Positions 1,630-32,964 of a stretch of 55,958 bases of DNA are shown here, one piece after another. The notes beneath the pieces are model-generated. The model did not search any database. It was given only the letters and a program-made list of their open reading frames with translations, and was not told the origin of the DNA. The translations under genes were made by a program, and so were the position numbers. Where the stretch lies: positions 1 to 55,958 of the IMG/VR virus record IMGVR_UViG_3300014720_000044. The stretch is one strand, 5' to 3'. Within the stretch, counting starts at the first letter, position 1; each line of letters opens with the position of its first letter. This DNA is from a virus.

Positions 1630-3660
1630 ATGGCAACAAGAATGCAACAGCGCAGAGGAACTGCAGCAACATGGACTGCTGCTGATCCAATACTTGCAGC
1701 AGGTGAAATCGGTTTTGAAACTGATACAAATAAATTTAAAATTGGCGATGGTAGTAATCGCTGGGTAACTCTTGCCTACTTCGTAGATGGCAACTCGATT
1801 ATCGATGGCGCCCCAGGTCTACTTAATACTCTTAACGAACTCGCTGCAGCCGTTAATGATGATCCTAACTTCTTTGCCACTGTTGCAACTAATTTATCAA
1901 ATCACGAAGCAGATACTACAAATGTACATGGTATTGCAGATACAGCCAATCTTGTTGTAACAAATACAAATCAAACATTAACCAATAAGACAATAAATTT
2001 ATCTAATAACTCTGTCAGTGGCACAGTTGCTCAATTTAATACTGCCCTTTCAGATGGCAATTTTGCTACCTTAGAAGGTACAGAAACATTAAGTAATAAA
2101 ACATTGAGCAGCCCAACAATTATTGTTGGCGCTACCACTGTTTCAGACACAGAAATTTCTTATCTTGATGGTGTAACATCATCGATACAGACTCAGTTAA
2201 ATGCAAAAGCAGGTCTAACTGGGGCTTCCTTTACTGGAACACTTACAAATACAGCGTCAATATCAACTACTGATACTACAGCGTCAACTTCTCCTACAAC
2301 AGGATCTATCGTTGCTGCTGGCGGTATTGGTGTAGGCGGAGACGCACACATAGATGGAGACGTAGTAATTGGCGGTAACTTTACTGTTAATGGTACAACA
2401 ACCACAGTAAGTACACAAGACTTAGTAATACAAGATCCTTTGATTTATGTTGGAGAAAGTAATCCTTCAAATATAGTTGATCTTGGTATTGTTGCTTCAT
2501 TCGATGATGGAACATATCAGCATACTGGTTTTGTTCGTGATTCATCTGCTGGAACATGGAAATTATTTAAGGGCGTAACTGATGAACCAACCTCAACAGT
2601 TAATTTTGCACAAGGCTCTTTAGATGATCTTGCTGTAGGAGGACTATCTGCTACTTCATTAACAGTAGGAGATGTTTCAAATACAGAAATAGGATATCTA
2701 AATGGAGTAACTTCTGCAATACAGACTCAGATCAATGGCAAGATTTCTGCTTCAAGTTCAGATACACTAACTAATAAAACAATAAACATGACAAATAATG
2801 GTTTGTCTGGAACTATAGAACAATTTAATGCAGCGCTATCTGATGAAGATTTTGCTACATTAAGTGGAACAGAAACTTTACAAAACAAAACAATATCTTA
2901 TGCAAATAATACTATAACTGTTCAGGTTACAAATGTTTCTGATCTAACTGCTAACGCATCAGAAATAAATGTATTAGATGGCATAACTGCTTCAACTGCA
3001 GAATTAAATATTTTAGATGGAGTTACTGCAAGTGCTTCAGAAATTAATGTATTAGATGGGGCAACGGTATCAGCAGCAGAACTAAATATTCTAGACGGTG
3101 CTACTGTATCAACTTCAGAAATAAATTATTTAGGTGGAGTCACTTCTTCTGTTCAAACTCAACTAGATTCTAAGTCACCGTCGGCAAGTCCAACATTTAC
3201 AGGAACTGTTGTTCTTCCATCCACAACATCAATCGGTGATGTTTCTTCAGATGAAATATCAGTTCTTAATGGGCTGACAGCATCAACAGCAGAACTAAAT
3301 ACCCTCGACGGATTGACAGCATCAACCGCAGAGTTAAATATTCTAGATGGATTGACAGCATCAACTGCTGATTTAAATATTCTTAATGGTGTAACTGCTT
3401 CTACTTCAGAAATTAATATTCTTGATGGGGTAACTGCATCAACAACAGAAATAAACTATGTTGTTGGAGTAACCTCTGCTATACAAACTCAAATGAATGC
3501 TAAGGCTCCGTTGGCAAGTCCGTCGCTAACTGGTACTCCAACCGCTCCAACTGCTTCACTTGGAACAAATACAACCCAAATTGCAACAACAGCATTTGTT
3601 GATGCTGCAATTGAGGCGCTGGCAAGTAGAAATCTAATACTTGACGGTGGCGGGGTATAA
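1630..3660 (+). CDS. Tail fibre with Mtd_N-like head and 13-residue repeats
   Basis: A 676-residue fibre. Residues 1-50 (MATRMQQRRGTA, AAGEIGFETDTNKFKIGDG) match the Mtd N-terminal fold used by many phages to fix receptor-binding proteins to the tail. A 60-residue segment shared with the next gene follows (LLNTLNELAAAVNDDPNFF, SNHEADTTNVHGIAD). In the middle lies a compact domain (GNFTVNGTTTTVSTQDLVIQ, then VDLGIVASFDDG and WKLFKGVTDEP), also shared with the next gene. It is followed by two blocks of five TASTAELNILDGV repeats, probably a triple-stranded beta stem. GAGGAG lies at 1615-1620. The likely role is a receptor-binding fibre; the receptor is unknown. Confidence 0.85.
   Translation: MATRMQQRRGTAATWTAADPILAAGEIGFETDTNKFKIGDGSNRWVTLAYFVDGNSIIDGAPGLLNTLNELAAAVNDDPNFFATVATNLSNHEADTTNVHGIADTANLVVTNTNQTLTNKTINLSNNSVSGTVAQFNTALSDGNFATLEGTETLSNKTLSSPTIIVGATTVSDTEISYLDGVTSSIQTQLNAKAGLTGASFTGTLTNTASISTTDTTASTSPTTGSIVAAGGIGVGGDAHIDGDVVIGGNFTVNGTTTTVSTQDLVIQDPLIYVGESNPSNIVDLGIVASFDDGTYQHTGFVRDSSAGTWKLFKGVTDEPTSTVNFAQGSLDDLAVGGLSATSLTVGDVSNTEIGYLNGVTSAIQTQINGKISASSSDTLTNKTINMTNNGLSGTIEQFNAALSDEDFATLSGTETLQNKTISYANNTITVQVTNVSDLTANASEINVLDGITASTAELNILDGVTASASEINVLDGATVSAAELNILDGATVSTSEINYLGGVTSSVQTQLDSKSPSASPTFTGTVVLPSTTSIGDVSSDEISVLNGLTASTAELNTLDGLTASTAELNILDGLTASTADLNILNGVTASTSEINILDGVTASTTEINYVVGVTSAIQTQMNAKAPLASPSLTGTPTAPTASLGTNTTQIATTAFVDAAIEALASRNLILDGGGV
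2947..3141 (+). repeat. Five 39-bp repeats, block 1 of fibre
   Basis: Five consecutive in-frame 39-bp units encode TA(S/N)(T/A)(S/A)E(L/I)N(I/V)LDG(V/I/A)-type 13-mers. The DNA has drifted at synonymous sites far more than the protein, so these are old, selected repeats and not a fresh expansion. Confidence 0.85.
3277..3471 (+). repeat. Five 39-bp repeats, block 2 of fibre
   Basis: A second run of five 13-residue units (TASTAELNTLDGL type) lies after a short spacer that contains an ATTAIQTQ-like cap. It ends with a VTSAIQTQ cap, as block 1 and the paralogous fibre do. Confidence 0.85.
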
Positions 3661-3668
3661 AAATAAGA

Positions 3669-3674
3669 TATAAT
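3669..3674 (+). promoter_or_regulatory. -10 box before second Mtd_N fibre
   Basis: TATAAT sits in the 43-bp gap between the two fibre genes, 29 bases before the ATG at 3704. It lacks the TG extension and has no clear -35. An AAGGAGAG ribosome site follows at about 3690. The similar layout before the first fibre makes a promoter plausible but weak. Confidence 0.35.
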
Positions 3675-3703
3675 GTACATAATAGTACTAAGGAGAGATA
3701 AAG

Positions 3704-5212
3704 ATGGCAATTAGAATGCAGCAAAGAAGAGGAACCGCAGCACAGTGGACCTCTGGAAATCCAACATTAGCAGCAGGCGAAATTGGATTTGAAACAGATA
3801 CAGGTAAGTTTAAGGTTGGAAACGGATCATCGACCTGGACTCAACTAAACTACTTCGTAGATGCAAACTCTATACTAGACGGAGCGCCAGGCGCCCTTGA
3901 CACACTTAACGAACTTGCTGCTGCACTTAATGACGATCCTACCTTCTTTACTACTGTTGCAACCAATCTCTCCAACCATGAAGCAGATACCTCAAACGTG
4001 CACGGTATTGCAGATACAACAGTTCTAGTAACACTAAGTGGAACTCAAACTCTAACAGGCAAGACAATTTCTGCAGTAGATAATACTGTAACAATTAATG
4101 CTGCCGATATTACTGATGTCACTGCTTCTGCAGCAGAATTAAACATTTTGGATGGTGTTACAGCCTCTACAGCAGAAATTAATCTTCTTGATGGTGTTAC
4201 AGCAACCACTGCTGAAATTAATACTTTGACAGGAATTACTGCAAGCGTATCAGAACTAAATGTTCTAGACGGAGTTACAGCGTCTACTGCTGAACTAAAT
4301 CTACTAGACGGCGTTACAGCATCCACTGCTGAATTAAATATTCTTGACGGTGTTACCGCAACTGCAGCAGAATTAAATATTCTTGCTGGAGCAACACTTT
4401 CTACTACTGAATTAAATTATGTAGATGGTGTAACCTCTGCAATTCAGACACAATTAAACACATTAGATACAGATAAGGCAGATCTTGCATCACCAACATT
4501 TACTGGTACAACAACAACAGATGATCTTGTTGTGGATGGAGACTTAACTGTAAATGGTACAAACTTTGTAGCAAGTGCAACATCTATCACAATTGAAGAC
4601 AATATTGTTCAATTGGCACATGAAAATGCTGCTAATACAGTAGACCTTGGTATTGTTGTTGGTTATAATGAATCAAGCACAGCAAAACACGCAGGTATTG
4701 TAAGAGATGTTTCTGCTAATAAATGGAAACTTTTTAAAGGTGTGACAACAGAACCTTCTACAACAGTAGATTTTACACAGGGATCTCTTGACGACCTTGA
4801 GTTAGCAAATCTTGCTGCAACAGAAGTTGCTGCTACAACTCTTAAGTATGGAGCAGGCGCACTAAGCGTTGAAACAGAAATTGACAAGAAGACTCCAGAA
4901 CTTTATACATTTACTACAGATGCAACTACAGCAAGAACACTTGCTTTAGGTGATAAGTTTGGATCTCTTAAGTTTACATCTGCAAGCGCAACAACTTTAA
5001 CAGTTCCAGCAAATGCTGATGTAGCATTCCCAACAGGCTCTTATGTTGAACTTTATCAGTTTGGCGCAGGACAGGTAACTGTATCTCCAGCATCTGGTGT
5101 AACAGTCAGATCTACTGACTCTCAGGTTAAACTAAGAACTCAGTACTCTTCAGCGGTTTTGATTAAGGTTGACACCAACGAATGGCTGTTGACTGGTGAC
5201 TTGACTGCTTAA
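3704..5212 (+). CDS. Second tail fibre with Mtd_N-like head
   Basis: A 502-residue paralog of the gene at 1630. It has the same Mtd_N-like head (MAIRMQQRRGTAAQW, GEIGFETDTGKFKVGNGSS), the same SNHEADTSNVHGIAD linker, and eight 13-residue repeats at 4121-4432. It then carries the shared DGDLTVNGTNF, VDLGIVVGYNES and WKLFKGVTTEP domain. The C-terminal about 110 residues (from TTLKYGAGALSVE) are unique and beta-rich, probably the receptor-facing tip. Domain order differs from the paralog: here the repeats precede the shared domain. This points to module shuffling between the two fibres. The start is set by AAGGAGAG about eight bases upstream. Confidence 0.85.
   Translation: MAIRMQQRRGTAAQWTSGNPTLAAGEIGFETDTGKFKVGNGSSTWTQLNYFVDANSILDGAPGALDTLNELAAALNDDPTFFTTVATNLSNHEADTSNVHGIADTTVLVTLSGTQTLTGKTISAVDNTVTINAADITDVTASAAELNILDGVTASTAEINLLDGVTATTAEINTLTGITASVSELNVLDGVTASTAELNLLDGVTASTAELNILDGVTATAAELNILAGATLSTTELNYVDGVTSAIQTQLNTLDTDKADLASPTFTGTTTTDDLVVDGDLTVNGTNFVASATSITIEDNIVQLAHENAANTVDLGIVVGYNESSTAKHAGIVRDVSANKWKLFKGVTTEPSTTVDFTQGSLDDLELANLAATEVAATTLKYGAGALSVETEIDKKTPELYTFTTDATTARTLALGDKFGSLKFTSASATTLTVPANADVAFPTGSYVELYQFGAGQVTVSPASGVTVRSTDSQVKLRTQYSSAVLIKVDTNEWLLTGDLTA
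4121..4432 (+). repeat. Eight 39-bp repeats in second fibre
   Basis: Eight consecutive 39-bp units each encode a 13-mer of the TASTAELNILDGV type. Codons differ widely between units while the Glu-(Leu/Ile)-Asn and Asp-Gly positions are nearly invariant. The run ends in TSAIQTQL, the same cap as in the neighbouring fibre. Confidence 0.88.
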
Positions 5213-11463: not shown

Positions 11464-14400
11464 ATGTCTAGTCCATCAAATCTATACGCCGAAAACATAT
11501 TCGCAGAGCATCCTCAAATATTGTGGGCACTCGATGATAAAGCAGACTATGTTTCTTTAATTCCTGATGCAAACAGAGATACTCTTACTTGGACAATAGA
11601 TGGTGGCACCTCTCAATTAACCGAAGATTTTGTTGATGCGCCATTTCCAGATAGTGTTATTAACAAGATTACAGTTTCATCTGTTACATCAGAATTTTTT
11701 TCGGTAAGCCTAATAAGCCCAACAATAGTAAATCTTAATCAGTTAAACGAAACACTGAAGACATTTTCTATTGGTTCTTATTTTTATACAACAAGTCCAT
11801 ACGCATTGAGCGTTGAGATTGGCTATAGGTATTATGATTCAGCATTAGAAGAATATGTAGATGTATTAAAATCTTATGAAGCATCCATAAAAGATAAATG
11901 GTTCTTTATATCAGAAACATTCAGCCCAGAAGAAGAAAACTCTACCATACAATTACTGATAAAATTTAATTTCTTGGGTCAGTCTTCAACATTATCAGAT
12001 TATGATTTTTATATTAATGGAATAAGTATTGGACAATGGGCGGAAGAGTTTCAGTCAACATCATTAGGAGTTGATACTATTGACTTGCCTTCAAGTGTAG
12101 ATTTATCAATTAACCTTACAGACGATAAAGTAATTGAAGCAGATGCATACGGATTATCAGTTAGCCCTGGATATTATTTTGTTAATAAAAACTCTCTTGT
12201 TGCTAAAAATTTTGGAGTTTCTTTAGTTTTTGGATCTCAGAACGTTACAAAGATTTATAATAATCAGGGCAAGCCATCCATCATAGTTCCATCATTAGGT
12301 ATGATGTCTGAAAGCGGAAGATATAAAGAGTTTACTTTAGAGTTTTGGATTAGAGCAAATAATTCCTCATCCGAACCTAAAAGAATTATTGGGCCAATAG
12401 GGTCTTCTGACGGTATATATTTTGATGGCCCATTTTTAATATTAAAGATAGATAATAATTATGGATCTTATTACATAGGACAATGGGAAAGACCAATGCT
12501 TATAGATTGGCGATATGCCAACAACATGTCTTCGGTTTTAATTAATGGAGAAGAAGTAATATCTATTAATTTTAATAGCGAACTATTGTCATTACAAAGC
12601 GATAAATCTGCTACTCTAAAAGATAAAAACTGGATAGGGTTTTATGCATATCAGAATATAGAGCCTATAGAAATAGATTGTGTTGCTATATATCCATACA
12701 TGGTTCCATCTTTAGTAGCAAAAAGAAGGTTTGTATTTGGTCAAGGAGTTCAATTCCCAGAAAACTTAAATGCATCATATGGTGGAAGTTCTGTTGTTTT
12801 TGACTACCCTTTTGCAGACTATACAAAAAATTATTCATATCCCAATCTAGGTTCATGGACTCAAGCATCTCTAGATAATGTGATAGAAGAAAACGGATAT
12901 TTAACAATTCCGAATGTTCAATCTCCTGCAATAGTTACTAATAGTTTAACTAAAAAACAATCAGAAATGCTTGAAGATTGTAATGCTATAAACAATCCAG
13001 TTCTTGATCCAGACCTATTTTTAAGATTAAAGCCAAACTCTACTTGGAATAGCACTGACTCTTACTTATACTTTGACACCTTTTCTTTGATTAATCAAGG
13101 AACATCTGCGTTCTATGGCTTGTTTAAAAAAGACGCTGGCTTTTCTGGAACTCAAGTTTTAATGAGACTTGAAGATCAAAATTCTAATTATTTTTCTATA
13201 GAATGTGTCAATAATGATGTTAATTATATTTTAAAGTATGGAGAAAATGCTCCAGAAATTATATATCAATCAGTCGGAGTTCCAAATGAAAAAACATTCC
13301 CAGTTGGAATTATTACAAATACTTTTAAGAATTATTATGGAGAGAATGTTGCTCAATTTTTTGCTAATGAATCTTTGCTTAAGATGTATGTAGGTGGAAC
13401 GAAAGATTTTGAAAAAACATTTACTGGTAAAATTTATAAAGTTGCTTTATGCTCAGAAAAAAATATGTATGAAATACAGTCAGTATTCAATGTACTTGGA
13501 GTCCCAAAAGATTATGAAAACATATTTAATCTATACGGTCCAGGAATAGACTACGACGGCGGGGAGTATGATAGAGAGTTCTGGGATTATTATATTGGAC
13601 AGACACAGTCTAATGAAGATGAACTAGATTTAATTTCTCCTACTTTAGAAAACTTTTCGTTCTGTCCTTCATGCTTTATAGAAATAAAGTTAAAAGACCA
13701 CGATCCTAGTTTAGGTATAACCCCTAAAAAATATTTTGATAGTTTTTATATAGATGCTTCTGTTCGTGGGTCATGGAAAGACTATATTCCGCTTTCTTAT
13801 TTTGGACAATATGTATCTGATGAATACGACAATAAAGTGTTTGATCTTGATTTTATTCAGTTTAACATTAACTATCCAGCACCAACTAAATTTAAAGAAA
13901 CAGAAACAATAGATGCAGATGGATGGACATATGAAGAATTAAGTGCCAGTTATTCTTATCCAGAACAGAGAACCTATGAATCTTTAGATAATTATTTATT
14001 TACTGGTTATATCAATTATGAAGATCTGGCAGAAAAATCTGTAAAGACATATTCGTATGATACTTCAGATGCCATTGTTAAAACATATATTACTTTTGAG
14101 TATTTAGAGCAGGGGGCCAATGCGGTAGACTCATACTTTGTTAATACTGAAAGTGTTCCTAAAAATGGAGTTGTTGAGCCAGGATCAAATTGGATAAACA
14201 CTAAATATGAGGTTGTAGATAATGTTATTATTTATCCACCTAACGGCATAGATTTTAACGATCTTGCTATTAGAATTCACATTGAGTTTAATGTTGACGG
14301 AATAAATTATCATCCTATTCAAATTAAAAATTTAGAGTTAGCGTCTCAAGCATTCAATTACGTTGGAACAAATAGCATAGGCACAAGGTTTGGTACAAAT

Positions 14401-15234
14401 GTTTATCCTTATTCAACAAACGGATATTATTTTAATTATAAATCCAAGAATCCGTTTTTGATCTATAAAGGATCTTCGCCTTATTTATATTTAACTAGAC
14501 ATTCTGGAATTGAGATAAGAGGAGACTATGATCCTATTATAAATAGAGGAATAGCAGTTCCAGTTAATTTGAATCAATCAGAAGATTATGAAGTAATGGC
14601 TATGCAAAGTTTAATTAGGTTTAATGGAGACTTTTTCCCTTATGCTCCAACTAAACTAATGCAAATAAATTCAAAAAATAAAGTGATAAAACTTTACATG
14701 GTTCCAAACCACCCTACTGGAAAAAGAGCAAAAATTTATGCTATAGATGGAAACAGCGGAGAACTGTATGACGGAATATCTTTTTATATCAATGGAAAAA
14801 TTGTAAAAGATCCAGTAATTAATATTAATGAATGGGCAATGCTTGGAATGGGCTTCGGCACAATTCTAGACTTCAAATCATACTCTGGATCAATTATGAT
14901 AAATGGCCCTATCATTTTTAATAGCCTTTCTTTCTACCAAACAACCAACCTTAAAGAAATCCAAAAGGTAGAGAATAGACCCTGGGCACGTGTCAAGTTC
15001 TCGGCTGAGGGTACATTTGAATGGGATTATTGGAGCAACTTCTTCTTGTGGCAGGGCATGCTAATACAGTCTTCTTCAAGTTACTATGGAGTAAATCCAG
15101 AAAATGTATACAAAGCCTATACTGGTACAAATAAGATTATAGTTGGTGACGATGCTACTTTTAGTATTCAAGAGTATGAATATTCTATATTTAAGGATGT
15201 TAAATGGCAGTCCACAATCTCAGATGCCGTATAG
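11464..15234 (+). CDS. Large tail protein with LamG-like domain
   Basis: A 1256-residue beta-rich protein with no enzyme motif visible. Residues about 270-420 (YKEFTLEFWIRANNSSSEPKRIIG, SVLINGEEVISINF, NWIGFYAYQNIEPIEIDCVAIYP) have the rhythm of a LamG or concanavalin-like domain. A second similar unit lies near residues 520-690 (SAFYGLFKKDAG, FFANESLLKMYVGGT). A third is likely at the C-terminus (GKRAKIYAIDG, YDGISFYINGKIV). Such multi-jelly-roll proteins are usual in tail tips and baseplates. The nearby gene at 33635 shares the style. There is no Shine-Dalgarno sequence; a -10-like box lies directly upstream, so the message may be leaderless. It sits between nrdJ and the portal, away from the other tail-tip genes. 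Confidence 0.7.
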   Translation: MSSPSNLYAENIFAEHPQILWALDDKADYVSLIPDANRDTLTWTIDGGTSQLTEDFVDAPFPDSVINKITVSSVTSEFFSVSLISPTIVNLNQLNETLKTFSIGSYFYTTSPYALSVEIGYRYYDSALEEYVDVLKSYEASIKDKWFFISETFSPEEENSTIQLLIKFNFLGQSSTLSDYDFYINGISIGQWAEEFQSTSLGVDTIDLPSSVDLSINLTDDKVIEADAYGLSVSPGYYFVNKNSLVAKNFGVSLVFGSQNVTKIYNNQGKPSIIVPSLGMMSESGRYKEFTLEFWIRANNSSSEPKRIIGPIGSSDGIYFDGPFLILKIDNNYGSYYIGQWERPMLIDWRYANNMSSVLINGEEVISINFNSELLSLQSDKSATLKDKNWIGFYAYQNIEPIEIDCVAIYPYMVPSLVAKRRFVFGQGVQFPENLNASYGGSSVVFDYPFADYTKNYSYPNLGSWTQASLDNVIEENGYLTIPNVQSPAIVTNSLTKKQSEMLEDCNAINNPVLDPDLFLRLKPNSTWNSTDSYLYFDTFSLINQGTSAFYGLFKKDAGFSGTQVLMRLEDQNSNYFSIECVNNDVNYILKYGENAPEIIYQSVGVPNEKTFPVGIITNTFKNYYGENVAQFFANESLLKMYVGGTKDFEKTFTGKIYKVALCSEKNMYEIQSVFNVLGVPKDYENIFNLYGPGIDYDGGEYDREFWDYYIGQTQSNEDELDLISPTLENFSFCPSCFIEIKLKDHDPSLGITPKKYFDSFYIDASVRGSWKDYIPLSYFGQYVSDEYDNKVFDLDFIQFNINYPAPTKFKETETIDADGWTYEELSASYSYPEQRTYESLDNYLFTGYINYEDLAEKSVKTYSYDTSDAIVKTYITFEYLEQGANAVDSYFVNTESVPKNGVVEPGSNWINTKYEVVDNVIIYPPNGIDFNDLAIRIHIEFNVDGINYHPIQIKNLELASQAFNYVGTNSIGTRFGTNVYPYSTNGYYFNYKSKNPFLIYKGSSPYLYLTRHSGIEIRGDYDPIINRGIAVPVNLNQSEDYEVMAMQSLIRFNGDFFPYAPTKLMQINSKNKVIKLYMVPNHPTGKRAKIYAIDGNSGELYDGISFYINGKIVKDPVININEWAMLGMGFGTILDFKSYSGSIMINGPIIFNSLSFYQTTNLKEIQKVENRPWARVKFSAEGTFEWDYWSNFFLWQGMLIQSSSSYYGVNPENVYKAYTGTNKIIVGDDATFSIQEYEYSIFKDVKWQSTISDAV

Positions 15235-15252: not shown

Positions 15253-15621
15253 ATGAAACATCAAAATCCAAACAAACTCGGTAAGTCTAAGTTAAAAGTA
15301 ATAGATAAAAACTATGACTGGGGTATCTATGTTTGGAAAAAGGCTAATGGAAAATGGTTTACAGATGGCCAGGGAAATGTTTTAAATATACCTTCCATGA
15401 AGGGTGATATTTCCAAAATAGCAGAATTAAAGAAAGCAGCAGCATATTATGGACAGCCAGAGGGAGAGGCCGTATTTTTCCCAGGTCTAAGCAGAATCTC
15501 TGACGAAGAATACGCAGAGCAAAAGCAAAGAATGGCAGAAGGCTTAATCCCAAATCTTAATGACCTTGGCGCAGTACATGCTGCACAGCAAACTATTAAG
15601 CGATATGGAGCAGACGACTAA
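15253..15621 (+). CDS. Conserved protein upstream of portal
   Basis: A 122-residue hypothetical protein. The start is put at the ATG at 15253; a GTG at 15247 is also in frame but lies only two bases from the -10 box and so could not be in the transcript. The sequence (KLKVIDKNYDWGIYVWKKANGKWF, LNIPSMKGDI, AYYGQPEGEAVFFPGLSRISDEEY, GLIPNLNDLGAV) is of a kind often found just before portal genes in actinobacterial phages. Its stop overlaps the portal start by one base (TAATG), so the two are probably translationally coupled. Its role is unknown, perhaps in head morphogenesis. Confidence 0.7.
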   Translation: MKHQNPNKLGKSKLKVIDKNYDWGIYVWKKANGKWFTDGQGNVLNIPSMKGDISKIAELKKAAAYYGQPEGEAVFFPGLSRISDEEYAEQKQRMAEGLIPNLNDLGAVHAAQQTIKRYGADD

Positions 15622-22914: not shown

Positions 22915-23541
22915 ATGGCTCTAGGTAATAGTAATAACATTATCGTAGGTGCAGCCCAACTATGGGTGCACGAGGCAGGTCCGTTAGCGGTTGGTGGTAA
23001 TCCAGCATTCGTTTCGGGCACAAAATACGCTACAACCATGGACGGAGATTCAGATTTCCGTAGCATTGGTTATACAATGAATGGTTTGGAAATTTCTTTC
23101 CAGCCAGATTTCGGTGAAGTTGCTGTTGATCAGGTTCTTGACGTTGCTAAGTTGTTCAAGCAAGGCATGCAGGTTAACCTAAATACAGCATTCGCAGAAG
23201 CAACATTGGAAAATCTTCTAATCGCCGTCGCAGGTGGTTCAGCAGATTTGACAGGTGACAAGGCAACATCAAATGGCCAGATCTTCAACATGAAGGCTGG
23301 TACACTCGGTGAGTGTCCTGTTGAGCGTGGTCTCGTTGCAGTAGGCCCAGGAACTGGTGATTGCGATGAAGGTTCAAATAAGGAAAGAGTTTATGTTGCA
23401 TATCGTGCACTCTCAATTGAGAATGTTACAGTATCTGCAAAGCGTGACGAAGCCACAATGTTTGAAGTTTCATTCCGTCTTCTTCCAGAAGACAGCACAG
23501 GTTCTTATGGTAAGATCATTGATCGTACTGTAACACCATAA
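22915..23541 (+). CDS. Major tail tube protein
   Basis: A 208-residue protein in the tail tube slot, directly before the chaperones and tape measure. The sequence is beta-rich with a Gly-rich early segment (MALGNSNNIIVGAAQLWVHEAG) and blocks such as 'MNGLEISFQPDFGEVAVDQVLDVAKLF' and 'NVTVSAKRDEATMFEVSFRLLPEDS', typical of tube subunits. GAGGTGA (22901-22907) is a strong ribosome site. Codon choice is close to that of the capsid gene (CGT for Arg, many C-ending codons), as expected for an abundant virion protein. A strong terminator follows. Confidence 0.8.
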   Translation: MALGNSNNIIVGAAQLWVHEAGPLAVGGNPAFVSGTKYATTMDGDSDFRSIGYTMNGLEISFQPDFGEVAVDQVLDVAKLFKQGMQVNLNTAFAEATLENLLIAVAGGSADLTGDKATSNGQIFNMKAGTLGECPVERGLVAVGPGTGDCDEGSNKERVYVAYRALSIENVTVSAKRDEATMFEVSFRLLPEDSTGSYGKIIDRTVTP

Positions 23542-23560: not shown

Positions 23561-23584
23561 GCCCAGTCGAAAGGCTGGGCTTTT
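23561..23584 (+). terminator. GAAA-tetraloop terminator after tail tube gene
   Basis: GCCCAGTC and GGCTGGGC (23561-23580) pair over eight bases around a GAAA tetraloop, followed by TTTT. This is the cleanest intrinsic terminator in the window. Confidence 0.88.
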
Positions 23585-23604: not shown

Positions 23605-24288
23605 ATGGCTACAACAATTTATGATAGTGCTTATATTAATTTAATAGATGGTACTAATATTTATATAACACCTTTAAAAATAAAATACCTACGTGAATTT
23701 TTAGTAGTTTTTGAAGATGTTAAAGAAACAAGGGGTGATGAGCAGGCAATCGCTGCACTTGCTAAATGTGCTTTAGTTGCTATGAAACAATATTATCCTG
23801 AAATAAAAACAATAGAGCAATTAGAAGATAGCGTAGATCTTCCAACTATTTATAAAATATTGGATATCGCAGCGGGTATAAAAATAGATAATAATTCTCA
23901 GGAAGAAGTAAAGACTCAGGCTACTGAAAGCGGATCCACTTGGGATACATTAGATTTAGTTAAACTAGAATCAGAAGTATTTCTATTGGGAATATGGAAA
24001 GATTATGAAGAACTTGAAACCTCGATGTCAATGCCAGAATTAACAGCAACCTTAAATATTAAAAGAGAATTAGATTATGCGGATAAAAAGTTTTATGCAG
24101 CAATACAGGGTGTTGACCTAGACAAGAATACTAAAAAGACTAATGCCTGGGAAGACATGAAGGCCAGGGTATTTAGTAAAGGTAAGGCTACAGACTCAAA
24201 TGACATCATGGCACTACAAGGAATTAATGCACAGCAGGCAGGGTTTGGAATTGGCATGGGCCTAGATTATGAGGAAATAAAAGACTAA
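23605..24288 (+). CDS. Long tail assembly chaperone (GT-like)
   Basis: A 227-residue protein just before the short chaperone and tape measure. Residues 1-97 are clearly paralogous to the whole of the next protein ('LIDGT.I...PLKI..LR.F', 'A..QY.PE', 'DLPT.YKI'). Residues 98-227 form an added domain (TWDTLDLVKLESEVFLLGIWKDYEELE, then MPELTATLNIKRELDYADKKFYAAIQG), the position taken by the T part of gpG-T in other siphoviruses. The chaperone would keep the tape measure soluble and recruit tube protein. There is no ribosome site; the gene looks leaderless. No slippery sequence is needed, because the long form is its own gene. Confidence 0.7.
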   Translation: MATTIYDSAYINLIDGTNIYITPLKIKYLREFLVVFEDVKETRGDEQAIAALAKCALVAMKQYYPEIKTIEQLEDSVDLPTIYKILDIAAGIKIDNNSQEEVKTQATESGSTWDTLDLVKLESEVFLLGIWKDYEELETSMSMPELTATLNIKRELDYADKKFYAAIQGVDLDKNTKKTNAWEDMKARVFSKGKATDSNDIMALQGINAQQAGFGIGMGLDYEEIKD

Positions 24289-24297
24289 AAATAAAGG

Positions 24298-24333
24298 CTC
24301 CTTATGGTATAATTGACTTAACCTTATAAGGAG
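24298..24333 (+). promoter_or_regulatory. Inverted repeat covering the short chaperone's ribosome site
   Basis: CTCCTTAT (24298-24305) and ATAAGGAG (24326-24333) are perfect 8-bp arms. The right arm is the Shine-Dalgarno of the next gene (AAGGAGG, 24328-24334). The left arm lies upstream of the -10 box, so it is present only in read-through RNA. RNA begun at the internal promoter would leave the ribosome site free. Confidence 0.5.
24305..24313 (+). promoter_or_regulatory. Extended -10 promoter of short chaperone (TGGTATAAT)
   Basis: Identical in sequence to the box at 23590 but 25 bases before its ATG, with AAGGAGG in the leader. No -35 is visible. Confidence 0.6.
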
Positions 24334-24338
24334 GAACA

Positions 24339-24665
24339 ATGGCTACAAATGTGCAAGAAGAAAAGACAATCGTACTGATTGACGGCACAAAAATTAAAGT
24401 AAGACCACTTAAGATATCACTACTTCGTCCATTTATGAAGAAGTTTGAAGGTATCGCAGCAGTGGCTGAAGATAATGAAAAATCAATGAACCTTCTCATG
24501 GAATGTGTTGCAATTGCTATGCAGCAATACAAGCCAGAGTTGGCGGAAGATTCTGCTGCTCTTGAAGAGAATCTAGATCTTCCAACAGTTTATAAGATCG
24601 TTGAAGAGGCTTCTGGTATCAAACTAACCGATGCTTCTTTAATCAGTAATCTTGTAAATGCATAA
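24339..24665 (+). CDS. Short tail assembly chaperone (G-like)
   Basis: A 108-residue protein matching the N-terminal half of the upstream chaperone (LIDGTKIKVRPLKISLLRPFMKKFEG, AMQQYKPELAED, DLPTVYKIVEEASGIKL). It lacks the T-like extension, and neither shifted frame beyond its stop stays open for more than a few codons, so no frameshift product is possible here. It would be the abundant partner, in line with its strong ribosome site and more C- and CTT/CGT-type codons than the upstream copy. The tape measure begins 28 bases after its stop. Confidence 0.75.
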   Translation: MATNVQEEKTIVLIDGTKIKVRPLKISLLRPFMKKFEGIAAVAEDNEKSMNLLMECVAIAMQQYKPELAEDSAALEENLDLPTVYKIVEEASGIKLTDASLISNLVNA

Positions 24666-24693: not shown

Positions 24694-27600
24694 ATGGCTG
24701 ATGTTCAATCGAATATTCATGTAAATATCGATACGTCTGAAGCGTTAGCCAGTATCAAACTTCTACAAAAGCAGATATCAGCATTCCATGCATCTATGGC
24801 GAAAAGTGGCGCTGCAGCAGCAGCCGTCTCCGCCAATATGCAGCAAAACCTAATAAACTCTCTTAATGCTACAGGCAAATGGTCTGCTTCTATGCGGACA
24901 GTTAAGACTACAACAGAATCATTTACAAATGCCCTAGAAAAAAATAAACTTTCAATGCGAGAATACTTTAGGTATTCTGCTGGAGCAACAAGAACATTTG
25001 GAAGATTTTTTAAATCAGAATTTGATACTATCAATAAGGTAGCAAGAGAACGAGTAAAAGATTTACAGACACAATATATAAAGATGGGTCGTGATGCAAA
25101 CGGTGCAATGAAGGCTATTGCCGTTAGACCACTAGCCCTAGACATGAAGAATCTTGGTACTCAAACTGCAATAGCAGCACAGAGACAGGCTATGCTTAAT
25201 CAATTGTTGAAGCAAGGCTCAACAAATATGCTTAATTTTGGTAAGAATACTCAGTGGGCTGGACGTCAGTTAATGGTTGGTTTTACAGTTCCTTTGGCTT
25301 ACCTTGGAACTGCAGCAGCAAAAACATTCATGAAGTTAGAAGAACAAGCAATTAGATTTAAGCGTGTTTACGGAGAGTTGTTTACAACTGGTCAAGAAAC
25401 TGATAAGATGCTTGCAGAGATACAGTTACTTGCAAAAGAATTTACTAAGTACGGCGTTGCTGTTGAAAAGACTATGGAGATGGCTGCAACAGCAGCAGCA
25501 AGCGGTAAGATGGGGGCAGAACTTCTTGCACAGGTTAATGAGGGAACAAGACTTGCAGTCCTTGGTGGAGTTGAACAAGAGCAAGCATTAGAAACAACTA
25601 TATCTTTAACTAATGCATTTGGTTTAGCAGCAGAAGAGTTAGCGGGTAAGATTAACTTTCTTAACGCAGTTGAAAACCAGACCGTCGTATCTATTGAAGA
25701 TTTAACAATTGCAATTCCAAAAGCGGGTCCAGTTGTAAAACAATTAGGTAGAGATGTAGAAGATCTAGCATTCTTCTTAACTGCAATGAAAGAAGGCGGT
25801 ATCAATGCATCGGAAGGCGCTAACGCACTTAAGTCTGGTTTAGCATCTTTGATTAACCCAACAGACAAAGCAAGCAAGATGCTTGCTGGCATGGGTGTAA
25901 ATATAAATGGAATTGTTGAAGCAAACAAGGGAAATGTTAAAGGCATCGTAATTGATTTTGCTAATGCTTTAAATACCTTAGACCCACTAAATCGTGCTCG
26001 TGCAATTGAACAATTATTTGGAAAATTTCAGTTCTCACGTTTGTCAACATTATTCCAAAATGTTATTCAACAAGGAAATCAGGCAAGTCGTGTTTTAACT
26101 TTAACACAAGCAACCACAGAAGAACTTGCTATATTGGCAGAACGAGAACTAGGAAGAGTAGAAGAATCTACTACTTATAAATTTAAGAAGGCCATAGAAG
26201 ATCTAAAAGTAACTCTTGCTCCAGTTGGAGAAGAATTCCTTAAGGCAATCACTCCAGTAGCAGAATTTGTTGGAAAGATGCTAGAAAAGTTTAATAATCT
26301 TGGCGACGGGACAAAGAAATTTGTTGTTATATTAACAACTCTGTTAGGTGGAATAGGTCCTATATTCCTAATGTCCTTTGGTCTTTTGGCTAACGGTTTG
26401 GCTAATATTATTAAACTATTTGTAAGCATGAAATCTGTTTTCAATCGTACTGGTCAATCTTCAACCATTTTAGGAAATCAAACTCAATTTTTAACAGTAG
26501 AGCAGGCTCAGGCAGCAGCAGTAGCATCATCACTTGATCAAGTGCATGTAAAACTACAACAAACATTTACTTCTGAAGCAGCAGCCCTAAATGCATTAAC
26601 TCAGGCGTATCAAAGAGCAATAACTGCACAAAGAGGTTTTGGTGGAGGAATAATTGGAAAGGGTCGTAAAGGATTTGCTTCAGGAACTAAAAAGGTAAAA
26701 CCATTTTATTTTTCAAGAGGAACAGACACAGTTCCTGCAATGCTTACGCCTGGAGAAGCAGTAATACCAGCAGGTCCAGCACAAGATCCTGCAAACAAAC
26801 CAGCAATTTCTCATATGATTGCAGGCGGAACTATGAAGCAATTTGCTGTTGGAAATATTAATGTTGGTGGAACTAATTATCCAGTACAGGCTAGAAATAG
26901 ATCAAGCGTTACAGCAATACAGTCTATTGTTGATCAAAGTTTAGGAACTGTTGATGATGCAATTAAGATTTCTCTTAGAGAATTAGTAAACGAAACTAGA
27001 GTAACGGTTGCTAAATTTAAAGAACAAATGAGACTTACTCTTGCTTCACAAGGCAAAGTCGCAGGACCACTTTTTGCTAAGTCTGATTGGGAGACTAGGT
27101 CAAGATCATATAATGCAAGCGGTGCAGGAGAAAGAAGAACAATTCAAGATCAATTAAGATCAGATCCATCTAAAGGTGGAAGAGGAATTGTAGCAGGACA
27201 AGCAGAATTAGATCAGGCAAATGCAGCAGCAAAAGCAATTAAAGCAAAAATGACAGAACTAGGAGCAACACAAAAACAAATTAATGCTGCTGTTCAATTA
27301 GATAGAGCACATGTTATAGAAATGTCAAATTCTAAGAAAAAATTATTGGCTGCATGGCATTCAGATGTATGGGTTGCTCAAACGGGCGCAGAGAATAATT
27401 TATCAAACTCATTAAAAAATTCAGAAAAAAATAGAAGAATTTATTTAGATGTATTAAAAAAGTCTGGAGCAACTCAGGCAGAAATTACTGCCATAACTGA
27501 TAAAGTTACAAAAGGTATTGCTTTAACAGGAAAAGAGTTGGAGATTCAGGGCAAGGTTCTTGCCAAAATAAATGCTGATATCGCATCTGGTCAAATCAAA

Positions 27601-30600
27601 GCAACATCAGTATCTAAAAACTTTAGACTTTATTCTGCAGCAGTTGCAGAAGCAGCAACAGCAAGAACTGCAGTTACAAAATCTCAAGGTCCTAAAATTG
27701 TAGCAGCAACAAAAAGAACAGAGGCCGAACTAAGAAGAGGAATTGAGAGAATTGCTCTTGCTATGCCAAAGGCTGCTGAAGAAGTTTTGCAGGTTGCGTC
27801 TCCGTCAAAAAGAATGCAAAAAGTTGGTCAAGAATCTGGTCGTGGTTTAGTTCTTGGAGCAAAAGAGTTTGTAGATGATGCAAGATTGGCTGGTACACAA
27901 TTAGGAACTGCAATTGCACAAGGAGCAATGTCTCAGTCTCAAATGGCAGCAGCATCAAGAGCAGCATTATATGGTACAGGTCCAATAGATCCAGCACAAA
28001 AGTCATTAAGAAGACAATTACAAAAACAAGCAAGATTAGATCGGATTGCACAAAAGAGACTATTCACTCAATCTAGTATTACTGGAATGGTCGCTGGTGG
28101 TGCAGCAGGCGGAGCAGCAGGTGGTGGAGGAAATAAAGGACGAGGTGGATTCTTTGGAAGATTCAGAAGACCAACTCCACAGGATCCAGATGGCGACGGT
28201 ATACCAAATCAAAGAGGCATTGGTATGGGTGGAGTCGGAATGGGTCTATCTATGGCAGCAATGGCTGGCTCTATGGCCCCTGGCAAGGTAGGAGAGATAT
28301 CTCAAAAATTAATGATGCCATTGATGATGTTGACAATGATAGGGCCTATGCTTAAGAGTCCAATTGGTGTAGCCGTTGTAGCAATAGGAGCCATGGCTGC
28401 TGCAATAATTAAATTAAGAATGGATTTTGATAAGGCTCAAGACTCTGCAATAAAATTAAGAGAGTCTATGATTGCAAGTAGAGACTCTATGCGTAACCTT
28501 GCCAAATTCTCTGGCAAAGTTACTGCTGGAGAAATTATGCAAAGAAGAAGTCAGGAAAGATTTGGATTAGTTGGCGCACAATCAGGAAAAACAACATTTG
28601 GAGAGTCTTACGTTCAAAGCAAAGAAGGCAAGGCAGTTATGGATGCCACAGTTGAATCATTAAAGACTCGTGGCGTCAAGTCTACAGGAGAAGATTTAAG
28701 CAATCAATTAATGAGCAGTGTCTTGGCGGGAGCGATAACTGCAGATCAGGCAAAATCAATAGCATTGAATATTGGACAAAAGACTGGGAATTATGGTTTA
28801 GGATTTTCAGTTACTGCTCAAATAAATGAATTAATTGGTCCTAATGGAGAAAATTTAGAAAAAGAACCCCTTGACATAAGAATGAAATTAATAGAGCAGA
28901 CAGAAAAACAAAATAAGCAATTATTTAATCAATTAGGAGATAGAGGCGTTGGCAGAGGCGGATTTATGAATCTTGGCGCAGTTAATCCAAAAGTTGCTTT
29001 AGGAGGAACAACCGCATTGGGTGCTGGTATAGGCGCTGCAATTGGAACAGCAATACTTCCAGGAGTAGGAACTGTTATAGGAACTGGATTAGGTGCTATT
29101 GCAGGTGCTACTACTGGATATTTTGCAACCAGAAATGAAAATAAAAAAGCAGGTCAAATGTCTGGCGCTGTTGTTGCATCTCAAAAAGGTGCGATGGAAC
29201 AACAACAGGAAATGCTTGACTCCTTAGATATTTATTATGAAAAGAAGATAAAAGAACTTGAAGTAGAAGGAAAGATTGCGGAAGCAAAAGCCCTTCAGAT
29301 AAAATATGATCAAGATAGAAATACTCTAGTTGACAAAGGTGCACAACTTAGTAAGGACATAATGACAAGTTATGGCTCTACAAGGGGTAATGTTAGAAGT
29401 GCTATGGATACTGGAATAAATAAACTTCTAACTCAAAGATTTAAGGGTACTGATGAGATTCAATATTTAGATGCTGCTAAGACATTATTAGCAGGCTCTG
29501 GCCTAACTGCAGAACAGCAATATTTAATTAAAGTAAAAATGTCTACTGGAGAATTAACTCCAAGCCAGCAAGTATTTTTATTCAGTAACTTTGGAGATGA
29601 TAAAGAAACAATTCAAAGATATATGGACATCGTGACTAACTTTAGTGCAAGAACTGGAGAAAATGCTACACGTGTCATGAATATGTTTACTAATCCAGAT
29701 GGAACTCCTAATACAAAAATGCAAGCAGAGTTTATAACTAAAGTTTCTGATCAAACCGATGATGCAGCGGCATCTAAATATGTAAACTTCTTTGCTGAAG
29801 TAGCAAACACAAATGGCGTTTTTGATATGACAGCAGTTCTTAATTATTATCTCCAAAATCCAGAGGTAGCATCTAGTGTTCAAGATATAATTGATAATAT
29901 TGATAAGAATAAAGGAAAATTAACATTAGATGTAATGACAAACTTCCTTCCAGAAAATGTAATGGGAGCAATTGACAAGACTTACTTTGACAAATTATCT
30001 CAAGATGAAAGAATGACATACCTTAAAGAAATTGCAACAATAGTAAATATTCCAGATCCAGTAATTCAGGCAGACCCTGAGTTTTTAAAGTGGCAAAAAG
30101 AGGGTGCGAACTATAACGGAGTTTCTTATTCAGGTAAAAGTATTGGCGAGCAGGTTGCTGCATATAGACAATTTCAGCCTTGGAAGGTAACTCAAGAATC
30201 AATTCAGCAAGCAGCAACACTTGATCCAGGTAACAATAAAGGTCCTAGTAAAGGGCCAAACGCTTCACCATTAGATGATTTGGTTAAGAAACTAAGAGAT
30301 GTTCGCAAGAATCAAATAAAGGTAACAGAGGGTTGGGCTGCTTCCCGTAAAGTTTTAGATTCACTATTCGGTGGCAAAAAGACCATTGATATATTTGGCG
30401 GTATAGAACAAGACCTCAATCGTCTAGGAGCCAAGGGTAACTTCATTGAATTAATAGTTGGCATGGATCCAAAAGAGTATGAAAATCGCAAGAGATCATT
30501 ATTTAGGTTTGATAATAAAGATAATATTATTGGATTAAAACGTGATGCTAAAACAATTCAAGAAGCATTAAACTCAATAGTGCTTGGAGATTTTGTTTCT

Positions 30601-32964
30601 GGAATGAAACAACAAAATACCCAACTAAAGGATCAGAAGAAAGCATTTAATACGTTAGTCAGTTCTGGAGTTAGTGTTAAGAACGCATACGACATGATAT
30701 CTGACGCAACTCTGGCTGCAGCAATTGCCTCTGAAAAAAATAGTAAGTCTGTTGCAAAATTAATTAAATATTATAAAGACCTTCAAAAAGCAAAAGACCT
30801 TGCAGCAGCAAAAGAAAATGTAAAAACAGATATAGAGGCAGAAGAGGCTCGTCAAAAGTTTTTGAAAGAATTCGATACTAGATTAAGTTCTGGAGAATTT
30901 GATAAATTTGGAAAAAGAACCTTTATTGAAGCAGCAGTACTTTTTGATGAAAATCTACAAAAGTTAGCAGAGTCAGGTGGATGGGGCACAAACTTTCAGA
31001 AGAGATTACAGCAAATATTAGACTCTATAGAATTTAAAGAGTCAATGTTTGAAAAAGGCTTCGGTAAAGCCATGGAAAGATTTAGTGTTTTAGAAGAAGC
31101 AATTGAACTTAAGTTTAAGTTCGATTCTGAAGACATAACAAATGCAATTCAGGAGGCTGAAGATAAGATTGCTTCAATCCAATATCAGATTGATGATTGG
31201 GAAGCAGGCTTAACATTAATTCAAGAGCAGGAAGATAAGATTAATGAAAAGTATGATGAAAGAGAGAAGGCTTTAGACTCACTTAAAAACCTCAATAGTG
31301 AAATAAGTAGACAGCAACAAGGTCAATTAACTCTTGCTGGTGCTCTTACACAAGGTGATATTGCTGCTGCTGCTCGTGCTGCTCAAGAGATGCGAGCACA
31401 ACAAGCAGAGAATGCTTTAAACAATCAGGGCAAGACTTTAGAAATTGCAAGAGAAAATGAATTAAAATCAATTACAACTGAGATTAATGGTCTTAAATAT
31501 ACTAGAACAGAAATCGAAGAAATAATCAAGAAGTTACAAAAAGACATATTTAATATTGAAGAAGAAACTTTAGAGCCACAAAGAGAATCTCTAAGACTTC
31601 TTGAAATTAAAAAGAGAGAGCAGATAAAGGGTCTTGTCGTTGCAGGATTAACTAAAGATGAATGGTTAGCAGTAAAGAATAATATTGATCAGGTTAAAAC
31701 ATCTAGTACTGATTATGATAAGGCAATTCAAGCAGCCCTTGATACAGTACAAAGTATTGTAGATTATTGGAAACAATTAGATGGTACATTTACTACTGAA
31801 CATATCATTAAAACAATTTATACATCAGAAGGAGGTTCGCAGGGTGGAAATGGTAACGGTAGTGATGATGTAGTCGTAGATAATGACACAAAAAGTTATA
31901 CCAACGATGATGACAACACAGAATCAGGAACAAAAGAATTCTTTGGCTCAAAGGATGACTCTCCTAGCAGTAACTCTACTAGCAGTAACTCTAATGGCAG
32001 TGGCTCTACTGGAGATGGCCCTAATACTGTAGCAACTGGAAATACCCCTGTAACATCAGCAGCATTAGTAACATTAACAAATTCTGGTATTTTAAATACA
32101 GATTTAATAAATGCTGCAACTCAGGCTCAAAATGAATATAACAAAGCAGTAGCAATATCTTTAAAGCCTGGAACATCTCCAAGTGATTTTGGTGCACAAT
32201 TAGCAGCAGCAGATAAAAAACTAGTTAATATATCAACATTAGCCGAAGAAAAAGATAAATATAATCAAATGGCAAAATCCACTCAAGGATCTACACCAAG
32301 TGACTTTGCTGCAGGTCTGGCAGCACAAGACGCTAAGGTTATAACTGCAATGAATCAAGTTGCAAGCACTCTTGTTGTACCAAAAATTGCAAAGTCTGCA
32401 GATGAAGCAAAAGCAGATGCAGAAAAAGCAGAAAGAGCAAGAGTCGATGCAGCAAAAGCAGCAGCAACAGCAGCAGCAATAAAGGTTGCCACCAGTACTC
32501 CAGCATCAGACAAAGCAAAAGCACAGGCCGATAAAGATGCCAAAGCAGCGGCAAATGCAAAAATTGGAGGCACTCAAAGCGGTGTAGTAGCAAACTTCTT
32601 AAACGAGCGGAAACCACCAACAAAGAAAGCAAGTGGTGGATTAATAAGACCATTATATAGACCGATGGGTGGATTAATACCATATATGAATGATGGAGGA
32701 TATACAAAATTTGTTCCTCTCGGATCTGATACTGTCCCAGCAATGTTGACCCCTGGAGAATTTGTTATGAGTCGATATGCTGTGCAAAACTACGGAGTAG
32801 ATAGAATGAAGGCAATTAATAATGGAGAAATGCCAGATGCTTCAGTGTATAATTATAGTATTGCTGTAAATGTAAGGTCTGATGCAAACCCTGACGAAAT
32901 AGCACGTGCTGTTATGTCTCAGATAAGACAGGTAGACTCTACAAGAATTAGGGGGATTAGATAA
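24694..32964 (+). CDS. Tail tape measure protein
   Basis: A 2756-residue protein, the largest in the window. At the usual rule of about 0.15 nm per residue, it predicts a tail near 400 nm, at the long end for siphoviruses. Long helical and coiled-coil stretches (for example near residues 30-120 and 2100-2300) alternate with hydrophobic segments near residues 545-585, 1190-1245 and 1430-1475. The motif GTDTVPAMLTPGE occurs twice: near residue 675, and near 2680 as GSDTVPAMLTPGEFVM, its normal place by the C-terminus. A DPDGDGIPN motif (near residue 1167) looks like a calcium-binding loop. The start at 24694 has a GAGGTG site; its stop overlaps the next gene by one base. Confidence 0.93.
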   Translation: MADVQSNIHVNIDTSEALASIKLLQKQISAFHASMAKSGAAAAAVSANMQQNLINSLNATGKWSASMRTVKTTTESFTNALEKNKLSMREYFRYSAGATRTFGRFFKSEFDTINKVARERVKDLQTQYIKMGRDANGAMKAIAVRPLALDMKNLGTQTAIAAQRQAMLNQLLKQGSTNMLNFGKNTQWAGRQLMVGFTVPLAYLGTAAAKTFMKLEEQAIRFKRVYGELFTTGQETDKMLAEIQLLAKEFTKYGVAVEKTMEMAATAAASGKMGAELLAQVNEGTRLAVLGGVEQEQALETTISLTNAFGLAAEELAGKINFLNAVENQTVVSIEDLTIAIPKAGPVVKQLGRDVEDLAFFLTAMKEGGINASEGANALKSGLASLINPTDKASKMLAGMGVNINGIVEANKGNVKGIVIDFANALNTLDPLNRARAIEQLFGKFQFSRLSTLFQNVIQQGNQASRVLTLTQATTEELAILAERELGRVEESTTYKFKKAIEDLKVTLAPVGEEFLKAITPVAEFVGKMLEKFNNLGDGTKKFVVILTTLLGGIGPIFLMSFGLLANGLANIIKLFVSMKSVFNRTGQSSTILGNQTQFLTVEQAQAAAVASSLDQVHVKLQQTFTSEAAALNALTQAYQRAITAQRGFGGGIIGKGRKGFASGTKKVKPFYFSRGTDTVPAMLTPGEAVIPAGPAQDPANKPAISHMIAGGTMKQFAVGNINVGGTNYPVQARNRSSVTAIQSIVDQSLGTVDDAIKISLRELVNETRVTVAKFKEQMRLTLASQGKVAGPLFAKSDWETRSRSYNASGAGERRTIQDQLRSDPSKGGRGIVAGQAELDQANAAAKAIKAKMTELGATQKQINAAVQLDRAHVIEMSNSKKKLLAAWHSDVWVAQTGAENNLSNSLKNSEKNRRIYLDVLKKSGATQAEITAITDKVTKGIALTGKELEIQGKVLAKINADIASGQIKATSVSKNFRLYSAAVAEAATARTAVTKSQGPKIVAATKRTEAELRRGIERIALAMPKAAEEVLQVASPSKRMQKVGQESGRGLVLGAKEFVDDARLAGTQLGTAIAQGAMSQSQMAAASRAALYGTGPIDPAQKSLRRQLQKQARLDRIAQKRLFTQSSITGMVAGGAAGGAAGGGGNKGRGGFFGRFRRPTPQDPDGDGIPNQRGIGMGGVGMGLSMAAMAGSMAPGKVGEISQKLMMPLMMLTMIGPMLKSPIGVAVVAIGAMAAAIIKLRMDFDKAQDSAIKLRESMIASRDSMRNLAKFSGKVTAGEIMQRRSQERFGLVGAQSGKTTFGESYVQSKEGKAVMDATVESLKTRGVKSTGEDLSNQLMSSVLAGAITADQAKSIALNIGQKTGNYGLGFSVTAQINELIGPNGENLEKEPLDIRMKLIEQTEKQNKQLFNQLGDRGVGRGGFMNLGAVNPKVALGGTTALGAGIGAAIGTAILPGVGTVIGTGLGAIAGATTGYFATRNENKKAGQMSGAVVASQKGAMEQQQEMLDSLDIYYEKKIKELEVEGKIAEAKALQIKYDQDRNTLVDKGAQLSKDIMTSYGSTRGNVRSAMDTGINKLLTQRFKGTDEIQYLDAAKTLLAGSGLTAEQQYLIKVKMSTGELTPSQQVFLFSNFGDDKETIQRYMDIVTNFSARTGENATRVMNMFTNPDGTPNTKMQAEFITKVSDQTDDAAASKYVNFFAEVANTNGVFDMTAVLNYYLQNPEVASSVQDIIDNIDKNKGKLTLDVMTNFLPENVMGAIDKTYFDKLSQDERMTYLKEIATIVNIPDPVIQADPEFLKWQKEGANYNGVSYSGKSIGEQVAAYRQFQPWKVTQESIQQAATLDPGNNKGPSKGPNASPLDDLVKKLRDVRKNQIKVTEGWAASRKVLDSLFGGKKTIDIFGGIEQDLNRLGAKGNFIELIVGMDPKEYENRKRSLFRFDNKDNIIGLKRDAKTIQEALNSIVLGDFVSGMKQQNTQLKDQKKAFNTLVSSGVSVKNAYDMISDATLAAAIASEKNSKSVAKLIKYYKDLQKAKDLAAAKENVKTDIEAEEARQKFLKEFDTRLSSGEFDKFGKRTFIEAAVLFDENLQKLAESGGWGTNFQKRLQQILDSIEFKESMFEKGFGKAMERFSVLEEAIELKFKFDSEDITNAIQEAEDKIASIQYQIDDWEAGLTLIQEQEDKINEKYDEREKALDSLKNLNSEISRQQQGQLTLAGALTQGDIAAAARAAQEMRAQQAENALNNQGKTLEIARENELKSITTEINGLKYTRTEIEEIIKKLQKDIFNIEEETLEPQRESLRLLEIKKREQIKGLVVAGLTKDEWLAVKNNIDQVKTSSTDYDKAIQAALDTVQSIVDYWKQLDGTFTTEHIIKTIYTSEGGSQGGNGNGSDDVVVDNDTKSYTNDDDNTESGTKEFFGSKDDSPSSNSTSSNSNGSGSTGDGPNTVATGNTPVTSAALVTLTNSGILNTDLINAATQAQNEYNKAVAISLKPGTSPSDFGAQLAAADKKLVNISTLAEEKDKYNQMAKSTQGSTPSDFAAGLAAQDAKVITAMNQVASTLVVPKIAKSADEAKADAEKAERARVDAAKAAATAAAIKVATSTPASDKAKAQADKDAKAAANAKIGGTQSGVVANFLNERKPPTKKASGGLIRPLYRPMGGLIPYMNDGGYTKFVPLGSDTVPAMLTPGEFVMSRYAVQNYGVDRMKAINNGEMPDASVYNYSIAVNVRSDANPDEIARAVMSQIRQVDSTRIRGIR

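Follow-up and report, generated by a model that had tools for sequence, protein, structure and literature searches.

Separate genes for the short and long tail assembly chaperones may take the place of programmed frameshifting in a freshwater siphovirus lineage

We analysed a 55,958-nucleotide stretch of DNA from a freshwater phage (hereafter the window; one virus record of IMG/VR) and observed that its short and long tail assembly chaperones are encoded by two separate genes. It is very likely that these genes encode the two forms of the tail chaperone, G and GT, that they came from a duplication after which GT became hard-fused, and that control of their ratio has moved from slippage to gene expression. 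With moderate confidence only, we extend this reading to the whole lineage of freshwater siphoviruses to which the phage belongs. In this lineage, duplication would have replaced recoding, and the ratio would now be governed by promoter and initiation strength, with a weak leaderless gene for GT and a strong leadered gene for G.

In most long-tailed phages, ribosome slippage on one gene yields both a short and a long chaperone. This G/GT frameshift is a textbook example of conserved programmed recoding, and the ratio of the two products is regarded as essential to the assembly of tails. In systems of the type of Xu, Hendrix and Duda (2004), a slippery heptamer is reportedly combined with an overlapping -1 frame T ORF, and GT is said to reach a few percent of G. 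For phage lambda, a passage in PMC5009743 describes low-level -1 slippage that yields a G:GT molar ratio of 30:1, with G binding the tape measure protein and T binding the major tail protein.

In the window, the long gene (23605–24288, 227 aa; TAC-NC, equivalent to gpGT) precedes the short gene (24339–24665, 108 aa; TAC-N, equivalent to gpG). These genes, their neighbours and their start signals are all on the plus strand. In the long gene, an N (G) domain (residues 1–97, 23605–23895) is fused in frame to a C (T) domain (from about residue 112, 23938–24285), the counterpart of the ORF that the frameshifting relatives have in the -1 frame. Residues 1–98 of the long protein aligned pairwise with residues 1–100 of the short protein at 43% identity and 65% positives (E=3e-24). 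Among the PHROG profiles, phrog_10504 matched residues 1–100 of the long protein and also the short protein, and phrog_10474, the family of the C part, matched residues 130–214 of the long one; neither family has a functional name in PHROGs. Pfam gave no significant family, and the PDB sequence profiles no significant match, for either protein. Upstream of the pair lies the major tail protein gene (22915–23541; phrog_2175 family, homologues in the same position being annotated as major tail protein), and downstream lies the tape measure protein gene (24694–32964, 2756 aa; PHROG tape measure families, best 8e-96). This position, the homology to annotated chaperones and the N-domain common to the short and long forms assign both proteins to the tail assembly chaperone family.

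A slippery heptamer with an overlapping -1 frame T ORF, as expected of a frameshift pair, was absent from the window and from the two-gene relatives described below. Both shifted frames downstream of the short-gene stop close within a few codons, leaving no open T frame, and the tape measure ORF begins 29 nt past this stop, so that a T extension could not fit behind the short gene. What we found instead, a short gene together with an in-frame fused long gene, agrees with the T4-like type as defined in PMC10885494. The first-pass annotation of this DNA had proposed two separate paralogs, the long before the short, with residues 1–97 of the former matching the latter and no open shifted frame after the short gene; the analysis bears out each of these points.

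The AlphaFold models of the two proteins had a mean pLDDT of 76–77, a few rows (from L427 and L472) having been left out whole in the prediction. The N-domains of both models have a common beta hairpin (9–12, 18–21) and the same order of helices; the lack of a common fold had been named beforehand as the outcome that would count against a paralogous pair, and the predicted folds agree. For the short model, the top PDB match in Foldseek was 2OB9, the HK97 chaperone gp13, although this match, which falls in the expected family, was weak by itself (E=0.37, probability 0.69, TM 0.46). A VIA search gave Z scores of 4.1–4.2, tied with unrelated chains. In the viral structure library, A0A6J5QVP5, named as a tail assembly chaperone, matched with E=3.8e-6, and several of the named matches were tail assembly chaperones. 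Foldseek gave no meaningful PDB match for the long model and did not rank a chaperone first.

A survey of relatives for fused or slippery versions, as the first-pass annotation had advised, was performed on 483 fetched records, almost all of them IMG/VR contigs, which were sorted into classes by HMMs for the N and the C part. We observed 368 loci of a two-gene class (an in-frame N–C fusion with another N gene behind it) and 103 of a frameshift class (an N gene with C behind it in the -1 frame); these loci are not independent genomes, because several scans fetched the same contigs, and the unique ones number 201 and 85, respectively. In nine further records the fused gene lay near the contig end with no space for a second gene, and three were contig-end fragments. 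Apart from such contig-end artefacts, there were no intermediates between the two classes among the 483 loci. One candidate intermediate, L042 (N-C-N), was rejected, its frame being broken inside the N-domain at the contig end. The gene order is conserved: where the flanking sequence was long enough, 348 of 348 two-gene loci had a major tail protein homologue upstream, and in 350 of 350 a homologue of the tape measure protein lay downstream. A search of bacterial genomes gave a single match, a frameshift-type locus with CCCAAAC (L484:3974-4614). The contig that carries it, 110 kb long and assigned to the MAG of an uncultured cyanobacterium, is probably viral.

Each of the two genes has its own start signals. 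An intrinsic terminator (23561–23580), formed by GCCCAGTC-GAAA-GGCTGGGC and followed by TTTTCTG, lies between the major tail protein transcript and the chaperone genes (RNA fold z=-4.45). Next to it is a putative promoter, P1 (23590–23598), with the extended -10 element TGGTATAAT 6 nt before the ATG of the long gene, which has no Shine-Dalgarno sequence. With a -10 element so close to its start, the long gene is classed as a predicted leaderless gene. A second putative promoter, P2 (24305–24313), carries the same element, TGGTATAAT (hexamer TATAAT), 25 nt before the ATG of the short gene, with the Shine-Dalgarno sequence AAGGAGG (24328–24334) in between. Scans of the window alone for promoters and motif consensus performed no better than shuffles, and we therefore take these signals as real on the strength of their conservation in about 150 unique relatives.

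Among the unique upstream sequences of the long gene, 146 of 150 have an extended -10 element at 5–9 nt before the start, 148 of 150 lack a Shine-Dalgarno sequence, and 68 of 72 place the -10 element in the same position as the window. The hexamers of this element vary (TATACT in 54, TATAAT in 45, TAAAAT in 25 and TAGAAT in 15; n=150). Upstream of the short gene, TATAAT occurs in 162 of 166 unique relatives, mostly 24–27 nt before the ATG, and a Shine-Dalgarno sequence in 165 of 166. A terminator-like hairpin 5' of the pair is present in 153 of 173 unique relatives, in the form of 77 different stems, whereas only one of 169 has a terminator between the long and short genes. The claim that the pair differs in start type, leaderless for the long gene and Shine-Dalgarno for the short, each with its own promoter, thus holds across the relatives at the level of sequence signals.

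It is likely that these elements act together as follows. By analogy with lambda, the short protein would serve as G and coat the tape measure protein, and the long one would serve as GT, whose T domain would recruit the major tail protein. The terminator would keep transcription of the major tail protein gene from running into the pair. P1, the weaker promoter as judged from its -10 hexamer only, would give a leaderless GT message, and P2, with its consensus hexamer, would give a leadered G message with a strong Shine-Dalgarno sequence. Since no terminator separates the genes, G would be read from both P1 and P2 and GT from P1 only, and G is predicted to be in excess. We infer, as the best reading of these signals, that the strengths of promoter and initiation set the G:GT ratio.

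The absence of a terminator between the genes also means that one P1 transcript could carry both of them, and leaderless and leadered starts are generally known to differ in efficiency. The ratio might then be mainly translational, with the putative P2 unused. We consider this unlikely, because the short-gene -10 element surpasses all others in conservation and stands at leader distance from the start, as it does in the frameshifting relatives.

Next, we consider the origin of the pair. In a tree of the C-domain, the two-gene class forms one side of a single branch (one change; SH-aLRT 70, moderate) amid a spread of frameshift lineages, and in a tree of the N-domain the long N-domains form one group (SH-aLRT 98) and the short ones another (91); these domain trees are built on few columns, with many of their forks unresolved. 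A tree of the major tail protein comes close to the same result, with two changes. That the long and short N-domains each form one group fits one old duplication, retained since then without gene conversion, and the two-gene class fits a single derived group descended from it. From its nesting among frameshift lineages, we infer that the change ran from frameshifting to two genes. In the ancestor, G and GT would have come from one gene through a -1 slippery site (CCCAAAC/T), and this gene would have been duplicated once. The upstream copy would have lost its stop and slip site to become a permanent in-frame GT fusion, and the downstream copy would have lost T and remained as G beside the tape measure gene. 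In this way, control of the ratio would have shifted from slippage to gene expression. The frameshift class has a leadered layout with a Shine-Dalgarno sequence before its single G gene; hence, the short gene has apparently kept the layout of the ancestor, and it is the long gene that has changed.

Both genes are under purifying selection, with median dN/dS values of 0.10 (long) and 0.06 (short), and the long N-domain diverges faster, its mean pairwise identity being 0.55 as compared with 0.71 for the short one. This faster divergence and the separate grouping of the N-domains would also be expected if the paralogues had split in function, the long one specialising as an initiator and the short one acting as a coat, so that the exact ratio would matter little and need no fine control. 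However, the layout of start signals is nearly invariant across the whole group, which argues that the amounts do matter and makes this split improbable. Control of the ratio through gene expression remains the reading that we prefer.

The junctions of the two classes differ sharply. An exact in-frame X XXY YYZ heptamer is present in 84 of the 85 unique frameshift junctions (CCCAAAC in 64, CCCAAAT in 17, GGGAAAC in two and CCCAAAA in one). The CCCAAA motif, in contrast, survives in only one of 198 unique junctions of the two-gene long genes. Other X XXY YYZ heptamers, mostly poly-T or poly-A runs, with T TTT TTA/G prevailing, do occur in the junction stretch of 71 of these 198, and would be compatible with a hidden frameshift, located either within the long gene or where the short one ends, that still tunes the ratio of the two chaperones. 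This is very unlikely, as no single heptamer is common to most loci, the open stretch past the short-gene stop has a median length of four codons in the shifted frames of the two-gene relatives, and the long gene makes GT without any shift. That the pair is an artefact of assembly or annotation, or a duplicate in decay, as the broken frame of L042 at its contig end might suggest, has practically no probability left, since the survey refutes it with the same arrangement in about 200 unique loci and purifying selection on both genes.

The short and long chaperones of lambda (gpG/gpGT) and HK97 (gp13/gp14) share an N-domain and, like the pair in the window, have their genes flanked by those for the major tail protein and the tape measure protein. 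However, lambda produces GT by slippage, whereas in the window GT is encoded in frame in a gene of its own. The closest named relatives are Stanwilliamsviridae phages of Streptomyces (Patelgo, MulchMansion and BillNye), to which the long protein is about 36–40% identical over most of its length, and which have the same gene order. In the three that we read, a single G gene is followed directly by the T domain in the -1 frame, with CCCAAAT in two of them. The third, MulchMansion (L162:3288-3345), likewise encodes T in the -1 frame, yet lacks a standard heptamer, CCCGGAA standing where CCCAAAT is expected. In tblastn, the long protein matched Streptomyces phages with genes annotated as tail assembly chaperone at E values down to about 1e-30. 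Up to E=1, this search gave only Streptomyces, Rhodococcus and one Caudoviricetes record, and no T4-like phage, although a distant common descent with the T4-like chaperone genes may exist.

Separate chaperone genes have been described in other phages. According to PMC10885494, which cites Vladimirov, Gautam and Davidson (2022, Virology 566:9), some T4-like phages dispense with frameshifting and, as in the window, encode the short form and the fused long form in separate genes. In some subclusters of Microbacterium cluster EA, two chaperone ORFs are reportedly expressed separately without evident frameshift; the passage concerned (PMC7302621) speaks of just two ORFs and does not describe a duplicated G domain or an in-frame fused GT gene. 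T4-like phages are contractile-tailed myoviruses, whereas in the window lineage the two genes lie side by side in a tail operon of siphovirus type, with frameshifting sister clades and a leaderless/leadered promoter pair. A literature search for duplication replacing programmed frameshifting gave nothing relevant, and in the mostly open-access literature that we searched there was no report of the arrangement in this lineage or with such a promoter pair. The novelty implied by the first-pass annotation, which did not mention the T4-like phages, therefore has to be narrowed. The arrangement itself is not categorically new, a precedent being reported in another tail type, while the siphovirus lineage, its frameshifting sister clades and its promoter pair are new as far as we have searched.

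A large clade without slippage beside sister clades with it makes it testable, within the same tail operon, whether slippage itself or only the ratio matters. If our reading is true, this is a natural experiment in which slippage is only one way of setting the ratio, and a case where leaderless versus leadered initiation may set stoichiometry. For annotators, it implies that a frameshift join should not be forced at two-gene loci.

We also noted several minor features of the window. The exact pattern TGNTATA(A/C)T at 5–9 nt 5' of an ATG occurs at only two of 1362 plus-strand ATGs, one being that of the long gene. The other is at 15253 (ORF 15253–15621), with TGGTATACT 7 nt before it, just upstream of the portal gene, and suggests that leaderless starts are used elsewhere in the phage. 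A gene for a 1256-aa protein (11464–15234) lacks a Shine-Dalgarno sequence and has a possible extended -10 element (TGATAAAAT) 9 nt upstream of the ATG. The perfect palindrome CCTTATAAGG (24322–24331) overlaps the Shine-Dalgarno sequence of the short gene and is kept in many two-gene relatives; it may be a hairpin or an operator. At this position the frameshift relatives have ATCC...AGGAGGAT. Sequestration of the same Shine-Dalgarno sequence by CTCCTT upstream of P2 on read-through transcripts was considered and rejected, as the fold z in the window was only -1.25 and the pairing was not conserved in relatives. The tape measure protein is very long, which implies a long tail. Two adjacent genes at 1630–5212, whose N-termini match the Pfam domain Mtd_N (major tropism determinant N-terminal domain), probably encode tail fibres.
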